Shown: positions 55,167-62,355 of the stretch, in pieces
Layout of the letters: the number at the start of each line of letters is the position of its first letter
Numbering within the stretch: position 1 is the stretch's first letter
Assembly (NCBI RefSeq): GCF_003569045.1
Contig: NZ_BFCB01000003.1
Coordinates: 744,001 to 808,000 of the forward strand
DNA from: Aggregatilinea lenta
Lineage (GTDB): Bacteria > Chloroflexota > Anaerolineae > Aggregatilineales > Aggregatilineaceae
Reading direction: 5' to 3'
DNA length: 64,000 nucleotides
Translations under genes and position numbers: made by a program
Notes under the pieces: model-generated
Told to the model about the DNA's origin: nothing
The model's database searches: none
Seen by the model: the letters and a program-made list of their open reading frames with translations, nothing else

Positions 55167-55847
55167 ATGTCCCGAACGATCCTGATTGCCGATGATGACG
55201 CTCAACTGCGGCGTACGTTGCGCGCGTACCTCGAAGACGCCGGATTTACCGTGCTGGTGGCCGGGACAGGGCAGGAAGCCGTGTTCGCCGTGCGGCACGA
55301 TCAGCCCGACCTCGTGCTGCTGGACGTGATGATGCCGGAAATGGACGGGTTCGAGGCGGCGCGGCTGATCCGCAAACAGAGCGCCGTGCCGGTCCTGATG
55401 CTGACCGCGCGCGACGACGAAGCCGACCAGACGACCGGCCTGGAACTGGGCGCGGACGACTACATCACCAAGCCGTTCAGCCCGCGCGTGCTGGTGGCGC
55501 GCGTCAAGGCGGCGCTGCGGCGCGCCTATGGCGATCTCGTCGCGGAGCCGCCGGTGCTGCGCGTAGGTCCGGTCAGCCTGAGCGAAGAGACGCGCGACGT
55601 CAAGCTCGACGGGGAGCCGCTGGCGCTGACGCGCTCCGAGTTCGACCTGCTGGCGGCGCTGATGACGCGGCCCGATCGTGTGTTCACGCGCATGGAACTA
55701 TTGGAGCGGCTGCAAGGCGAGGCGTTCGCGGCTTACGAGCGCACGGTGGATGTGCACGTGAAAAACCTGCGCGCGAAGCTGGGCACGGCGGGCGAGCGCA
55801 TCGAGACGGTGTACGGCGTTGGCTACCGGATGCGCGGCGATGAATAG
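55167..55847 (+). CDS. OmpR/PhoB-family response regulator
   Basis: 226 residues. Receiver domain (1-120): TILIADDDAQLRRTLRAYL with the acidic pair, phosphoacceptor Asp in LVLLDVMMPEMDG, Lys in YITKPFSP. C-terminal winged helix (about 130-226): VSLSEETRDVKLDGEPLALTRSEFDLLAAL and VDVHVKNLRAKLG. ATG 55167 follows GAGG; a longer in-frame start at 55062 is in repeat sequence. It overlaps the histidine kinase gene by 8 nt. It is the only OmpR-type regulator in the window, and so a candidate for the direct-repeat promoters at 60040 and 60930. Confidence 0.95.
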   Translation: MSRTILIADDDAQLRRTLRAYLEDAGFTVLVAGTGQEAVFAVRHDQPDLVLLDVMMPEMDGFEAARLIRKQSAVPVLMLTARDDEADQTTGLELGADDYITKPFSPRVLVARVKAALRRAYGDLVAEPPVLRVGPVSLSEETRDVKLDGEPLALTRSEFDLLAALMTRPDRVFTRMELLERLQGEAFAAYERTVDVHVKNLRAKLGTAGERIETVYGVGYRMRGDE

Positions 55848-57222
55848 ACTCTGGGTGCGGCTGGCGGGGGCGTTCCTGGCCGTCGCGCTGGTCGCGGCGG
55901 TCGCGGTGGTGGTGATCGTCAACCAGTCCACGCGCAGCAGCTTCCACAGCTACGTCGGGCAGCAGAATCTCGCCAATAGCAGCGGCGACGTGATCGATCG
56001 CCTGGAAGAACATTATGCCTCAACCGGCTCGTGGGACGGCGCGCAGAGCGTGCTGCCGGGGCAGCGCGGCATGGGTGGACAGGGTGGGCAAGGCGGTCAG
56101 GCGGGGCAAGGCGGCGGCCCGCGCTTCGTTGTGGCGAATGCATCCTATACCATCGTGGCAGCGAACGAGGAAGCACTGGTAGGGCAGAAGCTGGCCGCAT
56201 CCGAGCAGGACCTCGCGCTGCCGCTGGCAGTGGACGGGCGCACCGTTGGCTACCTGTACCAGCAGATGGGCAGCACCCAGGCGCTGAGCGCGGCGGAGGC
56301 ACAGTTTCTGGACAACGTGACCGATGCACTGGTGATGGCGGCGGTTGGTGCGGTAGTGCTCGCGGTGGCGATGGGCGTGGGGCTGGCATGGGTGCTGGTC
56401 CGCCCACTGCGCCATCTACGGCAGTCGGCGCTGGCGATCGAGCAGGGGCGGCTGGGCGCGCGGGTCCCCGTCACCGGCACGGTCGAATTTCAGGACGTGG
56501 CGGCGTCGTTCAACCAGATGTCGGCGGCACTGGCCGAAAGCGAAGCGCTGCGCCAGCGCATGACCTCCGACATTGCGCACGAACTGCGATCCCCGTTGAG
56601 CGTGATGCGCAGCCAGATGGAAGCCATGCTCGACGGCGTGTTTCCCCTCAACGCGGAGCAGCTGGCGGTGGTTTACGATCAGAATCTGCATTTGGGGCGG
56701 CTGGTCGAGGATCTGCGGACGCTGACGCGCGCCGAAGCCGGGCGGCTCTCGATGGATCTGGCGCGGATCGAGCCGGGTGAACTGATACAGCATGTCGCGG
56801 CGGACTTCGCGCCGCTGGCGCAGGATCAGGACATCGCGCTGCGCGTGGAAGTCTCGCCGGATCTGCCTGCGATTCGTGCCGACCGGGACCGGCTGCGGCA
56901 GGTGTTCACCAATCTGCTAGTCAACGCGCTCAAGCATACGCCCGCAGGCGGCAGCATCACGCTCAGCGCCGCACCGTGCGAAACAGGTGTGCGCTTCGAC
57001 GTGGCGGACACCGGCCCAGGCCTGACCGCTGACCAGGCGCGGCACGTCTTCGAGCGCTTTTACCGCACCGACGACGCGCGCCAACGCGATCGCAGCGGAT
57101 CGGGGCTGGGGCTGGCGATCACACAGGAACTGGTGCGGCTGCACGGCGGGCGGGTGTGGGTCGAGAGCACGCCCGGCGCGGGCAGCCGGTTTATGGTTGA
57201 GCTTCCGCGCGCCGAAGCGTGA
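55840..57222 (+). CDS. Membrane sensor histidine kinase
   Basis: 460 residues. TM1 about 8-27, extracytoplasmic loop 28-160, TM2 about 163-186, HAMP to about 240, HisKA with phospho-His247 in SDIAHELRSPLSVM, then HATPase with the N-box NLLVNALKHTPAGG, DTGPGL and GSGLGLAI. The sensor loop contains a Gly/Gln-rich stretch (residues 77-93, GMGGQGGQGGQAGQGGG). It forms a two-component system with the preceding regulator. The 3' end overlaps the convergent gene by 32 nt. Confidence 0.95.
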   Translation: MNRLWVRLAGAFLAVALVAAVAVVVIVNQSTRSSFHSYVGQQNLANSSGDVIDRLEEHYASTGSWDGAQSVLPGQRGMGGQGGQGGQAGQGGGPRFVVANASYTIVAANEEALVGQKLAASEQDLALPLAVDGRTVGYLYQQMGSTQALSAAEAQFLDNVTDALVMAAVGAVVLAVAMGVGLAWVLVRPLRHLRQSALAIEQGRLGARVPVTGTVEFQDVAASFNQMSAALAESEALRQRMTSDIAHELRSPLSVMRSQMEAMLDGVFPLNAEQLAVVYDQNLHLGRLVEDLRTLTRAEAGRLSMDLARIEPGELIQHVAADFAPLAQDQDIALRVEVSPDLPAIRADRDRLRQVFTNLLVNALKHTPAGGSITLSAAPCETGVRFDVADTGPGLTADQARHVFERFYRTDDARQRDRSGSGLGLAITQELVRLHGGRVWVESTPGAGSRFMVELPRAEA

Positions 57223-58276: not shown

Positions 58277-58678
58277 CTAATGCAGCCGCTCGGTATGGTC
58301 CACGATGCGACCCTCGGCGTACGCGCGCACAGCGTCTTCGGCGCTGGCGATGTCGGTCACGATCGGGCGGATGTTGGCCTGCTGCAGCGACACATACGCG
58401 CCGCGCCCCATGCCGCGCGAGAGCATTGCTTCGCAGTCGATGATCGAGTCGATCATCTGGTTGTGCTTGTGCTCCGACAAAGAGCCGAAGCCATGACCCT
58501 GGCCGTGATCGTGCTCATGATCGTGCGGCTGACCCGCGAAGTGACTGTGGTTGGCCTTGTCACGCTGTTCGCGCGCGATGATCGCGCCATCTTCGATCGT
58601 GAAAACCAGATAATAGGGTGCGCGGCCAAAGTGCTGGCTGATTGTTTGTCCGTCTTCGGTTACGACTGCAATTTTCAT
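58277..58678 (-). CDS. NifX/NafY-type (FeMo-cofactor-like domain) protein with His-rich insert
   Basis: 133 residues starting MKIAVVTEDGQTISQHFGRAPYYLVF, the standard start of the dinitrogenase Fe-Mo cofactor-binding family (PF02579), and ending with the GRGAYVSLQQANIRPIVTD segment. Between residues 44 and 72 it carries nine histidines (HSH, HDHEHDH, EHKH), a metal-binding insert absent from most family members. No nitrogenase genes are present, so a role in iron-sulfur or metal trafficking is more likely. AAGGAAG precedes the ATG. Confidence 0.88.
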   Translation of the reverse strand: MKIAVVTEDGQTISQHFGRAPYYLVFTIEDGAIIAREQRDKANHSHFAGQPHDHEHDHGQGHGFGSLSEHKHNQMIDSIIDCEAMLSRGMGRGAYVSLQQANIRPIVTDIASAEDAVRAYAEGRIVDHTERLH

Positions 58679-58714
58679 CGATATTCTTCCTTATAAGCGG
58701 CGATAAGTGGATCC

Positions 58715-58757
58715 ATTTTACTACTTTTATTGGACTCGTCAATTATTATGGTACAAT
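58715..58757. promoter_or_regulatory. Overlapping divergent promoters, NifX-like and XRE-cupin genes
   Basis: Plus strand: TTGGAC (58730-58735), 16 nt, TACAAT (58752-58757). Minus strand: TTGACG (58737-58742), 16 nt, TAAAAT (58715-58720). The -35 boxes are almost adjacent, so one bound regulator could block both. Confidence 0.68.
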
Positions 58758-58796
58758 CGACACAGCAAAAACTGCAGACAAGGATTATAGGACATT

Positions 58797-59384
58797 ATGG
58801 CGCGCAGCACGCTCAATGTCGGTCCCCGCATCCGCGCAATCCGCGAGCAGCGCAAACTGTCGCTGCGGGCGCTGGCGGAGCGGTGCGACCTGTCGATTAA
58901 CGCGATCAGCCTCATCGAGCGGGGGGAAAATTCCCCGACGGTGTCCTCGCTGCACACGCTGGCGAACGCCCTGGGCGTGAAAATCACCGACTTCTTCGAG
59001 GAGACGCAGGGGCAGGCGATCGTGTTCGTGCCGCGCGGCCAGCGGCTGGGCACGCAGGGCAACGGGCTGGTGATGGAAAGCCTGGGCATCGGCCTGCACA
59101 ACCAGCAGCTGGAGCCGTTCCTGGTTGCGGTCGAGCCAGGCGCGGGCGGCGCAAGCCAGCCGATCAGCCACCCTGGCCAGGAGTTCGTCTACTGCACGAG
59201 TGGTGCGATTGAGTACCACGTGAGCAGCCACGCGTATGCCATGCAGCCGGGCGACAGCCTGCTATTCGACGCGACGCAGCCGCACTACTTCTGCAACCTG
59301 AGCGACCGTCCGGCGGAGCTGCTGTTGGTGTTCCAGGGCTTCGAAGGGGGTATTCTGGCCCGCCACCGCCACCTCGAAACGTAG
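58797..59384 (+). CDS. XRE-family regulator with cupin sensor domain
   Basis: 195 residues. HTH_3 at about 8-65 (IRAIREQRKLSLRALAERCDLSINAISLIERGENSPTVSSLHTLANALGV) and a C-terminal cupin_2 domain (about 105-185; HPGQEFVYCTSGAIEYHV, MQPGDSLLFDATQPHYFCNL) whose His/Glu residues can bind a metal or small ligand. Divergent from the NifX-like gene and probably its regulator. Confidence 0.93.
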   Translation: MARSTLNVGPRIRAIREQRKLSLRALAERCDLSINAISLIERGENSPTVSSLHTLANALGVKITDFFEETQGQAIVFVPRGQRLGTQGNGLVMESLGIGLHNQQLEPFLVAVEPGAGGASQPISHPGQEFVYCTSGAIEYHVSSHAYAMQPGDSLLFDATQPHYFCNLSDRPAELLLVFQGFEGGILARHRHLET

Positions 59385-59411
59385 GTTCCCGGCGGCGCGG
59401 ACAGATGCGGT

Positions 59412-59459
59412 GCGAAGCGGCACACCAATCCGGTGCTGCGGATCGGTGCACCGCTTCGC
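59412..59459. terminator. Bidirectional hairpin between convergent genes
   Basis: 21-bp imperfect stem, left arm 59412-59432 starting GCGAAGCGG, right arm 59439-59459 ending CCGCTTCGC, 6-nt loop. It lies between the XRE-cupin gene and the convergent AhpD-like gene. Confidence 0.65.
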
Positions 59460-59477
59460 GGGGAAGAAAACCGATGC

Positions 59478-59825
59478 TTACCCTACAGCCTCGGCCTGAA
59501 ACTGCTTGAGGGCTTCCAGCGTCTCGCAGCCGTACATCACAGCGGGACCGCCGCCCATCAGGATCGCAACCCCGATGGTTTCCATGATCTCATCTTCGGT
59601 CGCCCCGGCAGCAAGCGCGTCGTGCACGTGGAACGCGATGCAGCCGTCGCAGCGAATGGCGATGGCGATGCCGAGCGCAATCAGTTCTTTGGTCTTCACA
59701 TCGAGCGTTCCGGTTTCGGACGCCTTCTCATGGAGCTTGCCAAAGCATCCCATCGTGGTCGGGATGCCGCCGCCCAGCTGGCTCATCAGGTCTTTCATGT
59801 GTTGGTAGTGATCGGGGTAATTCAT
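59478..59825 (-). CDS. AhpD-like carboxymuconolactone decarboxylase-family protein
   Basis: 115 residues. The hallmark CxxC plus His is visible: IRCDGCIAFHVHDALAAGATEDEIMETIGVAILMGG. Such small proteins act as alkylhydroperoxidase-type thiol antioxidants; a decarboxylase role is unlikely. The start MNYPDHYQHMKDLMSQLGGGIP has GAGG upstream. It is divergent from the DUF2202 gene across a regulatory gap. Confidence 0.9.
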   Translation of the reverse strand: MNYPDHYQHMKDLMSQLGGGIPTTMGCFGKLHEKASETGTLDVKTKELIALGIAIAIRCDGCIAFHVHDALAAGATEDEIMETIGVAILMGGGPAVMYGCETLEALKQFQAEAVG

Positions 59826-60001: not shown

Positions 60002-60039
60002 ATCGCATGCTCCGCTGATTGTGTGGCGATCCACATAAG

Positions 60040-60085
60040 TTCCACCCGGCTTCTTCATAAGTTCTACACAGTCTCCCTTTATTCT
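60040..60085 (+). promoter_or_regulatory. Promoter of the DUF2202 gene with 11-bp direct repeats
   Basis: Three direct repeats at an 11-bp period: TTCCACCC (60040), TTCTTCAT (60051), TTCTACAC (60062-60069). They are followed after 10 nt by -10 TATTCT (60080-60085). No -35 is present; the repeats take its place, as in OmpR/PhoB-type activated promoters. The same layout occurs at 60930-60986. Confidence 0.62.
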
Positions 60086-60128
60086 ATGCACAGGTTTAAC
60101 GATGAGTTCAAAGCATAGGAGATACAAC

Positions 60129-60830
60129 ATGTTGAAGAAGCGTCTGGTGAAAGTCGGATTTTTCACGCTGGTGTTGGTAGGCGTTGTCGCCTTTTCGCTG
60201 GCAGTGATGGCAGATACGAGCTACGCACAGGGACCGGGTGGTCGCGGCGGTCGTGGCAATCAGGGCACGGGGTATCAGGCCAACCCGGGCACGGGTATCC
60301 AGAACGGTGGCACGATGGGCTACGGCCAGATGGGCCAAGGTTCCATGGGCCGGGGCAATATGGGGACTGCGGGTCAGATTGGGATCGGCCAGGGTTGGCT
60401 GTGCTGCTTGCCGGATGCCGTCGCGGGTGACGTGCCTGCGGACGTGATCGATGCACTGGCGGGTGGGCTGGCGGACGAGCACAACGCGTACAACATCTAC
60501 CAGGCCGTGATCGACCAGTTCGGCGCAGTGCGCCCGTTCACCAACATCCAGCGCGCCGAGGCGCAGCACATTGAGGCGCTTGAATTCCTGTTCGACCGTT
60601 ACGGGATCGCTGTGCCAGACGTCGCGCCGCTGGCCGACGCACCCCAGTTCAGCACGCTGGTCGACGCCTGCGCCGCCGCGGCTGACGCCGAAGTCGCCAA
60701 TTTCGCGCTTTACGACAGCTGGATCGCCACGGTACAGGATTACCCGGACATGGTGCAGGTCTTCACCTCCCTGCGTGATGCGTCCGAATTCCAGCACCTG
60801 CCCGCATTCGAGAACTGCGCCAGCTTCTAG
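60129..60830 (+). CDS. Secreted ferritin-like DUF2202 protein, Gly/Met-rich N-terminus
   Basis: 233 residues. Signal peptide (MLKKRLVKVGFFTLVLVGVV...SYAQ), then a Gly/Gln/Met-rich region (35-90, with units like GQMGQGSMGRGNMG), then a DUF2202 domain (about 92-230). The domain shows a di-iron pattern: Glu117, Glu144-x-x-His147, Glu188, Glu220-x-x-His223, plus Cys92, Cys93, Cys181 and Cys230. It probably binds iron or another metal outside the membrane; the activity is unknown. AGGAG precedes ATG 60129. Confidence 0.88.
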   Translation: MLKKRLVKVGFFTLVLVGVVAFSLAVMADTSYAQGPGGRGGRGNQGTGYQANPGTGIQNGGTMGYGQMGQGSMGRGNMGTAGQIGIGQGWLCCLPDAVAGDVPADVIDALAGGLADEHNAYNIYQAVIDQFGAVRPFTNIQRAEAQHIEALEFLFDRYGIAVPDVAPLADAPQFSTLVDACAAAADAEVANFALYDSWIATVQDYPDMVQVFTSLRDASEFQHLPAFENCASF

Positions 60831-60861
60831 CCCTCTAACATTCTCTACACCGCTGCAAAAA

Positions 60862-60895
60862 GGGGTGCCCGGTCATTGTCAAGGCCGGGCGCTCC
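60862..60895 (+). terminator. Intrinsic terminator after the DUF2202 gene
   Basis: 11-bp stem with two G-U pairs (60862-60872 with 60885-60895, core GCCCGG / CCGGGC), 12-nt loop, followed by TTCGTTTG. It separates the DUF2202 transcript from the next promoter. Confidence 0.7.
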
Positions 60896-60929
60896 TTCGT
60901 TTGTCCTAGCGACGGACGGTGCGCACGCA

Positions 60930-60986
60930 ATCTTCATCATTTCCCCGCAGCTTCTTCACCGGTTCTTCACATCTTCCCCTTACCCT
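60930..60986 (+). promoter_or_regulatory. Promoter of the DUF4405 gene with 11-bp direct repeats
   Basis: Repeats start at 60930 (ATCTTCAT), 60941 (TTCCCCGC), 60952 (TTCTTCAC) and 60963 (TTCTTCAC, to 60970), all at 11-bp period. After 10 nt comes -10 TACCCT (60981-60986), then ATGGGCAG, parallel to ATGCACAG at the DUF2202 promoter. The spacing equals that of the other promoter exactly. Confidence 0.62.
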
Positions 60987-61040
60987 ATGGGCAGTTGTGT
61001 GATGAACGGCTGCCTACTGCTGCGGGCGGAAAGAGGACCC

Positions 61041-61634
61041 ATGTCAAAACGGACGCGACTCAACTGGTTGATCGACCTGACGGTATTTTTGAGCGGGCTG
61101 GCCGCCGCGCTGTCGGGCATTTATTACCTGTACCTGCCCAACGGGTACCAGGGCGGGCGCAATCCCCTGTACAACACCGTGATCGTGTTTCACCGGGGAA
61201 CCTGGGAGGACATTCATACCTGGGGCGGCGTGATCATGGTCGCCATTCTGTTGGTGCATATCACTTATCACTGGTCATGGGTGAAGACGATGACCCGCCG
61301 CATGGTCAATGCCATTCGGGGCCGTGGGACGCGCATGTCTTCGAAGGCGCGCTTCAACGTCCTGATCGACGCGCTGATCGGCTTGTGCTTTGTGCTGGTG
61401 GCGACCTCCGGCATTTATTTCCTGTTCGCACCGTCCGGCTCCGCGCATTCCACCGTGACCTTCCTGTTCAGCCGCACGACGTGGGACTTGATCCACACGT
61501 GGTCCGGCACGACCATGATCGCGGGCGCGGTCGTACACTTCGCCATTCATTGGGGCTGGGTCACCAAGGTCAGCACTCGCTTTTTCACCACTCTGCGATC
61601 CGGCGCACGCCCGGTTCCCCAGATGTCGCGCTAA
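61041..61634 (+). CDS. Four-helix DUF4405-type membrane protein, internally duplicated, probable heme b
   Basis: 197 residues made of two copies of one module. Copy 1 (about 5-85): LNWLIDLTVFLSGLAAALSG, His51, IHTWGG with His59, His73 and His77 (VHITYHW). Copy 2 (about 101-180): FNVLIDALIGLCFVLVATSG, IHTWSG with His152, His166 and His170 (VHFAIHW). The paired transmembrane histidines suggest two or more b-type hemes in a four-helix bundle, as in cytochrome b/DUF4405 proteins. AGAGGA precedes the ATG. An operon with the next gene, 28 nt downstream. Confidence 0.85.
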   Translation: MSKRTRLNWLIDLTVFLSGLAAALSGIYYLYLPNGYQGGRNPLYNTVIVFHRGTWEDIHTWGGVIMVAILLVHITYHWSWVKTMTRRMVNAIRGRGTRMSSKARFNVLIDALIGLCFVLVATSGIYFLFAPSGSAHSTVTFLFSRTTWDLIHTWSGTTMIAGAVVHFAIHWGWVTKVSTRFFTTLRSGARPVPQMSR

Positions 61635-61662
61635 TTCATCTTACGTTGAGGAGACAAGAACC

Positions 61663-62139
61663 ATGTTGAAGAAGATCGTGCTCGGCGTTTTGTTCACTGG
61701 CTTGATCGGCGTCCTGATCTACGGGGCAATTAACCGGACCATCGCCAAAACGCAGTCTGAAGAAACCGGGCAGGAAAGTGGCGAAGTCTGGGGTGGCGGT
61801 ACGGGGAACGGTGGCGGGCTGGGCGGTGGGTCGGCCTACGCCGAGAGCGAAGCTGCTGCCAGTGAGTGGCTGATCGTGCAGGGCGTGGTGACCGATGTGA
61901 GCGACACAGAACTGGTGCTGGACGCGGACGGTGAAGCCGTGTTCGTCGAGGGGCGTCCGTGGGCGTATGCGCTGGAGCAGGGCTTTACCGCGCAGCCGGG
62001 CGACCGGGTGAGGCTGAACGGTTACTATGAGGACGGCGAGTTCAAGGTCGGGCTGATGGAAAACGCGGCGTCCGCCATGCGCGTGCAGTTGCGCACCAGC
62101 ACGGGCGCGCCGATGTGGGCTGGTGCTGGCTGGCGTTAG
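61663..62139 (+). CDS. Membrane-anchored Gly-rich protein with OB-like domain, unknown
   Basis: 158 residues. N-terminal anchor or signal (MLKKIVLGVLFTGLIGVLIYG), Gly-rich linker (WGGGTGNGGGLGGGSAYAE), then an about 85-residue beta-rich domain (SEWLIVQGVVTDVSDTELVLDADGEAVFVEG ... PGDRVRLNGYYEDGEFKVGLMEN) with the order of strands of an OB fold. Not a named family to my knowledge. GAGGAG precedes the ATG. Probably acts outside the membrane with the cytochrome-like and ferritin-like proteins. Confidence 0.8.
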   Translation: MLKKIVLGVLFTGLIGVLIYGAINRTIAKTQSEETGQESGEVWGGGTGNGGGLGGGSAYAESEAAASEWLIVQGVVTDVSDTELVLDADGEAVFVEGRPWAYALEQGFTAQPGDRVRLNGYYEDGEFKVGLMENAASAMRVQLRTSTGAPMWAGAGWR

Positions 62140-62355
62140 GCCCCGGTCTCTTTTGGTCTTACCAGGGCGCGGTCCGTCAGATGCGGGCTGCGCCTTTTCG
62201 TGTTTTCCCGGCGGCGTACGGCGGGATCATAAATCGGCGGAAAGCGCGTTTTATTTTATCATTAGGGCGCGCGGCGACTGGCCCGGATCTGGGGACGCCT
62301 GCCGCATGGGTTCGCGCGTATTTACCGGACGGTCATTAGGAGCAAAAAAAGCCTT

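Follow-up and report, generated by a model that had tools for sequence, protein, structure and literature searches.

One OmpR/PhoB-type system probably controls two neighbouring units for a ferritin-like protein and a DUF4405 cytochrome with an anchored OB-fold protein in Aggregatilinea lenta

In PhoB- and PhoP-type regulons, the pho box consists of 11-bp direct repeats that lie beside the -10 box and replace the -35 element. A locus of Aggregatilinea lenta, contained in the 64,000-nucleotide stretch of DNA analysed here (the window), resembles these regulons in having tandem 11-bp repeats in place of a -35 element and a regulator with receiver and Trans_reg_C domains, the recognition helix of which we take to resemble that of PhoB. 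It differs from them in the repeat itself (TCTTCACAAnT, not a pho box), in its redox-protein targets and in a BaeS-like kinase. We consider it likely that the two repeat-bearing units are targets of one OmpR/PhoB-family system, very probably the pair encoded at 55167-57222 (Table 1), and that they build an extracytoplasmic electron-transfer set.

The protein families involved also have described relatives. Flavinylation-associated DUF4405 cytochromes (PMC11334425) share with the protein found here the DUF4405 domain, conserved central histidines and a role, here proposed, in membrane electron transfer; ours differs in its two fused short halves, its His pairs 14 residues apart and its two-component control, and is partnered by an anchored OB or DUF2202 protein where the published clusters have ApbE/flavodoxin_4. 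In the same study, purification of a DUF4405 protein from a different phylum showed it to bind heme b, and DUF4405 was related to FezC of ferrosomes. The likeness to FezC lies in a related cytochrome with an iron-type partner, although here the ferritin-like partner would be secreted or anchored outside, and the FezC relationship is taken from PMC11334425 alone. Bacterioferritin, rubrerythrin-nigerythrin and MJ0754 resemble the predicted DUF2202 structure in a four-helix bundle with an E, EXXH, E, (E)XXH pattern, whereas the window DUF2202 protein is exported and has a Gly-rich N-terminal linker, an invariant Cys pair and a variable last Glu. YgiW (BOF) and CusF are likewise extracytoplasmic OB-fold proteins; similarity to them is at fold level only (best E 0.01), and the window protein differs in its membrane anchor and C-terminal GRPxWxG-type motif. 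The kinds of component (OmpR-type regulon, DUF4405 cytochrome, ferritin fold and OB fold) are thus all known, and the literature searched points to their combination being undescribed: we found no mention of DUF2202 and no paper that brings together Anaerolineae, Rieske, cytochrome b and two-component regulation.

Table 1 Features of the locus, in window coordinates
Feature	Position	Strand	Basis or description
OmpR/PhoB-family response regulator, probable activator	55167..55847	+	profile matches and orthologue comparison
Sensor histidine kinase, BaeS-like, predicted extracytoplasmic sensor with Gly/Gln-rich insert	55843..57222	+	overlaps regulator gene
Control site 1	60030..60085	+	four 11-bp direct repeats, half repeat and -10 TATTCT; DUF2202-unit promoter
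Secreted ferritin-like DUF2202 protein	60129..60830	+	signal peptide, Gly-rich linker, four-helix bundle, E/EXXH ligand pattern, invariant Cys pair
Intrinsic-terminator-like hairpin between units	60860..60897	+	15 pairs
Control site 2	60931..60986	+	four 11-bp direct repeats, half repeat and -10 TACCCT; DUF4405-OB-unit promoter
Duplicated DUF4405 membrane cytochrome	61041..61634	+	Pfam PF14358, invariant His
Membrane-anchored OB-fold protein	61663..62139	+	anchor MLKKI...GAINRTIAK, linker, OB domain (predicted)
Intrinsic-terminator-like hairpin 3' of OB gene	62164..62196	+	

Read directly from the letters, site 1 comprises TCCACATAAGT (60030-60040), TCCACCCGGCT (60041-60051), TCTTCATAAGT (60052-60062) and TCTACACAGTC (60063-60073), followed by TCCCTT (60074-60079) and the -10 box (60080-60085). 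Site 2 has the same build, with TCTTCATCATT (60931-60941), TCCCCGCAGCT (60942-60952), TCTTCACCGGT (60953-60963), TCTTCACATCT (60964-60974), TCCCCT (60975-60980) and its -10 box (60981-60986). Both promoters carry four TCTTCACAAnT-type repeats at a step of exactly 11 bp, and no sigma-70 -35 element was found at either. The initial annotation had described repeats of 11-bp period ending 10 nt before the -10 box, and this is borne out in both units, where 10 nt separate the end of TTC(T)(A/T)CAC from the -10 box; the terminator that it placed between the units is present as the 15-pair hairpin. Its further motif after the -10 box, ATG[C/G][A/G]CAG, is found in the window and is unconserved among orthologues.

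The window holds exactly two occurrences of the core pattern, where 0.15 are expected even allowing one mismatch, and the 6.2-Mb genome has exactly two without mismatch. With a sequence-only model of the signal (R1), a whole-genome search returned just three sites at E≤10: site 1 (44.8 bits, E 5.6e-11), site 2 (40.6 bits, E 1.2e-9) and a near match (C3:1398578; L118 10557-11071, own-genome C3:1398556) with an identical layout, located 5' of a secreted-protein gene. The product of that gene begins MKNKHLVKIGVFTLIIVGVAVFSLALVTDTSLAQGPGG, carries VDADGDGVCDN repeats (VDADGDGVCDNCG) and shares a homologous signal peptide with the DUF2202 protein. A protein resembling it, also with a control site, is encoded at L115. 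Between the two-component genes and the two units, window positions 58277-59825 hold Nitro_FeMo-Co (NifX-like), XRE-cupin regulator and carboxymuconolactone decarboxylase-family (CMD) genes, none with the signal; among genes neighbouring the units, no control site was found upstream of the DUF364, NifX-like and CMD genes.

We found DUF4405 orthologues in 8 of 100 relatives (51-59% identity) and DUF2202 orthologues in 15 of 100. An expectation-maximisation search of the upstream regions of orthologues yielded the consensus TcTtCACAA.ttCc.CAta.c.tCTTCAtaAGTTCTtCACAatc..cg.tTATccT, in which CA stands at positions 4, 15, 26 and 37, once in each of four repeats, and positions 50-55 form a -10 box; spacings between TCNNCA pairs peak at 11, 22 and 33. 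When a matrix was built from the DUF4405 promoters of relatives only, DUF2202 promoters and both window promoters outscored all 500 dinucleotide shuffles, and training on DUF2202 promoters likewise separated DUF4405 promoters from shuffles (0/500), with L039 (5/500), L023, L026 and the borderline L027 as exceptions to this cross-training. Because the training sites were drawn from a joint alignment, this test is strong yet imperfectly blind. Across the order, model R1 finds control sites at E≤0.001 in 34 of 101 genomes.

The signal extends beyond the order. Our class-wide sample comprised 66 DUF4405 loci from public genomes, among them the cultured Pelolinea submarina (L245), whose DUF4405 gene has the signal; apart from one Pseudomonadota and one actinobacterium title, all were titled as Anaerolineae or as other Chloroflexota. 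In 46 of the 66 loci, a site is found no more than 250 nt upstream of DUF4405, compared with 7 other matches in approximately 80 times more sequence. As a strict count of TNNCA(C/T) spacings was too weak outside training, we adopted a matrix test with shuffles; in that test, with matrices matched for composition, p≤0.005 was reached by 48 of the 56 DUF4405 loci that lay outside training. The test that the initial annotation had set for itself, namely that orthologues keep the repeats upstream, was therefore passed across order and class. Its claim that the units are co-regulated gains support from the cross-trained matrices and orthologue promoters, and on this comparative basis the DUF2202 and DUF4405-OB units are almost certainly under common control.

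Approximately 4 kb upstream of the two units lies the regulator/kinase pair. The regulator matches PF00072 (receiver, 111 bits) and PF00486 (Trans_reg_C, winged-helix, 86.5 bits), and the kinase has HAMP, HisKA and HATPase_c domains, although it reaches none of the curated equivalog cut-offs examined. Regulator orthologues are present in 27 of 101 genomes, and sites occur in 22 of these 27 versus 12 of the 74 without one (p 2e-9); outside the organism's own family, the counts are 12 of 17 versus 12 of 66 (p 7e-5). In 18 of the 22 genomes (window included), the regulator gene is within 6 kb of a site on the same contig, often in one operon, as in L089 (DUF4405-OB-regulator-kinase) and L090 (DUF2202-regulator-kinase). 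Site-linked regulators at L079, L081, L089, L090, L099, L112, L114 and L121 are 62-85% identical to that of the window and at most 54% identical to the next paralogue in the organism's own genome, and window-type regulators have in common the recognition helix YERT(V/I)DVH(V/I)KNLRAKL or a close variant. OmpR-type control, as initially annotated, is thus backed by a regulator of the OmpR/PhoB type, with a common DNA-recognition helix, physically linked to the signal in 18 genomes. Linkage and co-occurrence together make the adjacent pair very probably the controller of the sites.

Twelve of the 34 signal-bearing genomes, mostly with weak sites, encode no close regulator orthologue. Other regulator classes (L097, L116, L119, L120, L122 and L123) also stand 3' of similar sites, and those of L097, L116-type and L122 are 42-51% identical to the window's, suggesting that the box is common to a clade of regulators. 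At L116, L119, L120 and L123, a different OmpR-type regulator-kinase pair is preceded by a secreted-protein gene and a similar box. Autoregulation of the window regulator was ruled out, as no site lies upstream of it (best score -15.8), unlike at L099 and L114. At these two loci, a heavy-metal-type P-type ATPase gene (L114 3567-5534; L099 9186-11153) is convergent with the autoregulated two-component pair. In the window, a DUF4213/DUF364 gene (putative heavy-metal chelation) runs convergently to the kinase gene, and the 3' ends of the two share approximately 32 nt (57191-57222).

Genes 3' of sites in the order encode DUF2202 proteins, DUF4405-OB pairs, VDADGDG proteins, Fer4_5 (NapH-like) proteins and two-component systems. 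In relatives, a further site-led operon begins with a homologue of the window OB protein, followed by cytochrome b, a Rieske protein and a multi-domain cytochrome c. At L105, this order continues with regulator and kinase, and L093 has the same arrangement with a DUF4405 gene placed between cytochrome c and regulator. Judged by these sites, the regulon exceeds three genes and includes the cytochrome b-Rieske-cytochrome c operon, Fer4_5 proteins and the two-component system itself. The organism's own single cytochrome b gene (C3:966168) has no site within the 3.5-kb stretch examined. DUF4405 and DUF2202 co-occur across genomes (p 2e-5). Within the order, however, the joint occurrence of the three genes, which the initial annotation had proposed to look for, is not conserved: the window genome alone has DUF2202 and DUF4405 on one contig, and no relative's contig has both, which rules out a fixed three-gene cassette there and indicates a regulon instead. 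Elsewhere in the class, DUF4405-DUF2202 operons exist. ApbE genes lie approximately 5 kb or less from sites in two distant genomes (L090 9065-11843 and L118 15819-17909), and in L090 a ferric-reductase-like membrane gene accompanies ApbE, hinting at a flavin-based link.

The three products had been read as a secreted di-iron-like protein, a duplicated heme-type membrane protein and an anchored OB-like protein, and structure and conservation are consistent with each reading. The DUF2202 protein, for which 60129, with AGGAG seven bases 5', is a more probable start than 60102, scores 24.1 bits in Pfam against a cut-off of 22. Its domain is confidently modelled (pLDDT ~96), and the predicted structure matches MJ0754 (Z 16.7, rmsd 1.8 over 136 residues), bacterioferritins (Z 15.7-16.6) and nigerythrin (Z ~16), supporting a ferritin-like fold. 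The putative iron ligands E144, H147, E188 and H223 are invariant, and the helix-A Glu is present in every aligned row that covers helix A; the pattern is mostly kept, but at least three orthologues lack the Glu of the second EXXH. A specific iron or oxidant role for this protein is a tentative assignment that we rather doubt.

The DUF4405 protein matches PF14358 in two stretches (78.3 bits, gathering score 26.7), and H59, H73, H77, H152, H166 and H170 are invariant in nine orthologues. Within each half, a pair of His is spaced by fourteen residues (59/73 and 152/166) and accompanied by a further invariant His, so the protein is probably a diheme cytochrome b-like core, a heme-type reading also supported by the published DUF4405 purification (PMC11334425). 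None of the 66 loci has an ApbE match within approximately 6 kb of DUF4405, in contrast to the published flavin-linked clusters. Beside another OmpR-type regulator, and in divergent orientation to it, lies a distant DUF4405 paralogue (29% identity) at G000:C4:63486-64822 (L026, L143). The peptide GYQGGRN in a DUF4405 loop (window 61143-61163) recurs at the C terminus of the L084 OB protein and the N terminus of the L095 DUF2202 protein; as a genome-wide interaction motif it was rejected, being restricted to DUF4405 in the organism's own genome.

The OB protein has no Pfam match. Its model shows a beta-beta-beta-alpha-beta-beta topology, which supports the predicted OB fold, with weak structure matches (Z below 7) that hold at fold level only. 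The gene 3' of DUF4405 almost always opens with an anchor of the type M(L/I/F/V)KKI...GAxxRTxAK. In most loci the anchored payload is an OB domain, but five loci (L215, L220, L225, L226 and L254) have a canonical DUF2202 domain instead, with Pfam scores of 183-188 bits in L225 and L254.

We propose that the phosphorylated regulator, responding to a stimulus that may be redox- or metal-related, would bind the four 11-bp half-sites head to tail and on a single face of the DNA. Of these, the final one abuts the -10 box and would stand in for the -35 element, so that the regulator would activate transcription in the manner of PhoB. The duplicated, probably diheme DUF4405 protein would trade electrons with the quinone pool or a flavin/Fe-S donor and carry them across the membrane to the anchored OB protein, its putative outer partner, or to the ferritin-like partner; the secreted ferritin-like di-iron protein may be an electron or oxidant sink, or an iron handler. 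In relatives, the same signal would drive the OB-led cytochrome b-Rieske-cytochrome c operon that ends in regulator and kinase. That extracytoplasmic electron transfer is the function of the set is a view that we hold with moderate confidence.

Short, AT-rich upstream regions could make two neighbouring promoters alike by chance, but orthologue promoters refute this, as do the whole-genome search and the conservation across families and orders, and we regard the likelihood as negligible. It is very improbable that the signal is an alternative-sigma-factor promoter class instead of a response-regulator box: the motif does sit directly on the -10 box at promoters lacking a sigma-70 -35 element, yet the four tandem repeats span 44 bp, far beyond the length of a -35, and 18 genomes have an OmpR-type regulator gene either sharing the operon or no more than 6 kb away. 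Several regulator classes stand behind similar sites, which leaves room for binding by a related paralogue, and the organism's own genome encodes at least 20 full-length OmpR-type paralogues, among which L136 (51%) is the next candidate and has a similar recognition helix. A different paralogue, or several regulators with one common box, might then bind the sites, the adjacent pair not being the main controller. However, the regulators in relatives' DUF4405-OB and DUF2202 operons match the window's best by at least 10 points, no site lies near L136, and most orthologue-bearing genomes (22 of 27) have sites. We consider such a substitution improbable.

A further alternative concerns function and leaves co-regulation untouched. 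The set could serve iron storage and redox, with DUF4405 cycling iron for the ferritin-like protein as has been suggested for FezC of ferrosomes. The predicted bacterioferritin/nigerythrin fold of the DUF2202 domain, the reported relationship of DUF4405 to FezC (PMC11334425) and the DUF4405-DUF2202 operons all agree with this reading; the partners of DUF4405, however, are mostly OB rather than ferritin-like proteins, and the presence of a bc-type operon in the regulon favours respiration over storage. We therefore judge iron storage unlikely, though well short of negligible, and keep extracytoplasmic electron transfer as the preferred function.

Anaerolineae abound in sediments, aquifers and waste-treatment systems, yet little has been described of their redox sensing and extracellular electron handling. 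The locus described here ties three uncharacterised families (DUF2202, the anchored OB protein and the two-half DUF4405) to one probable regulator, a common anchor in the membrane and a partner operon of respiratory type, and it names a concrete DNA box and regulator ready for study in vitro. That one anchor carries either an OB or a ferritin-like payload offers a lead on the electron acceptor of the cytochrome. More tentatively, with the balance slightly against it, a single Anaerolineae-wide system may exist in which one kinase/regulator pair switches on a diheme DUF4405 with exchangeable outer payloads (OB or ferritin-like), coupled to a bc-type cytochrome b-Rieske-cytochrome c complex; such a system, if real, would amount to a branch of respiration or of iron/oxidant handling that is so far undescribed.
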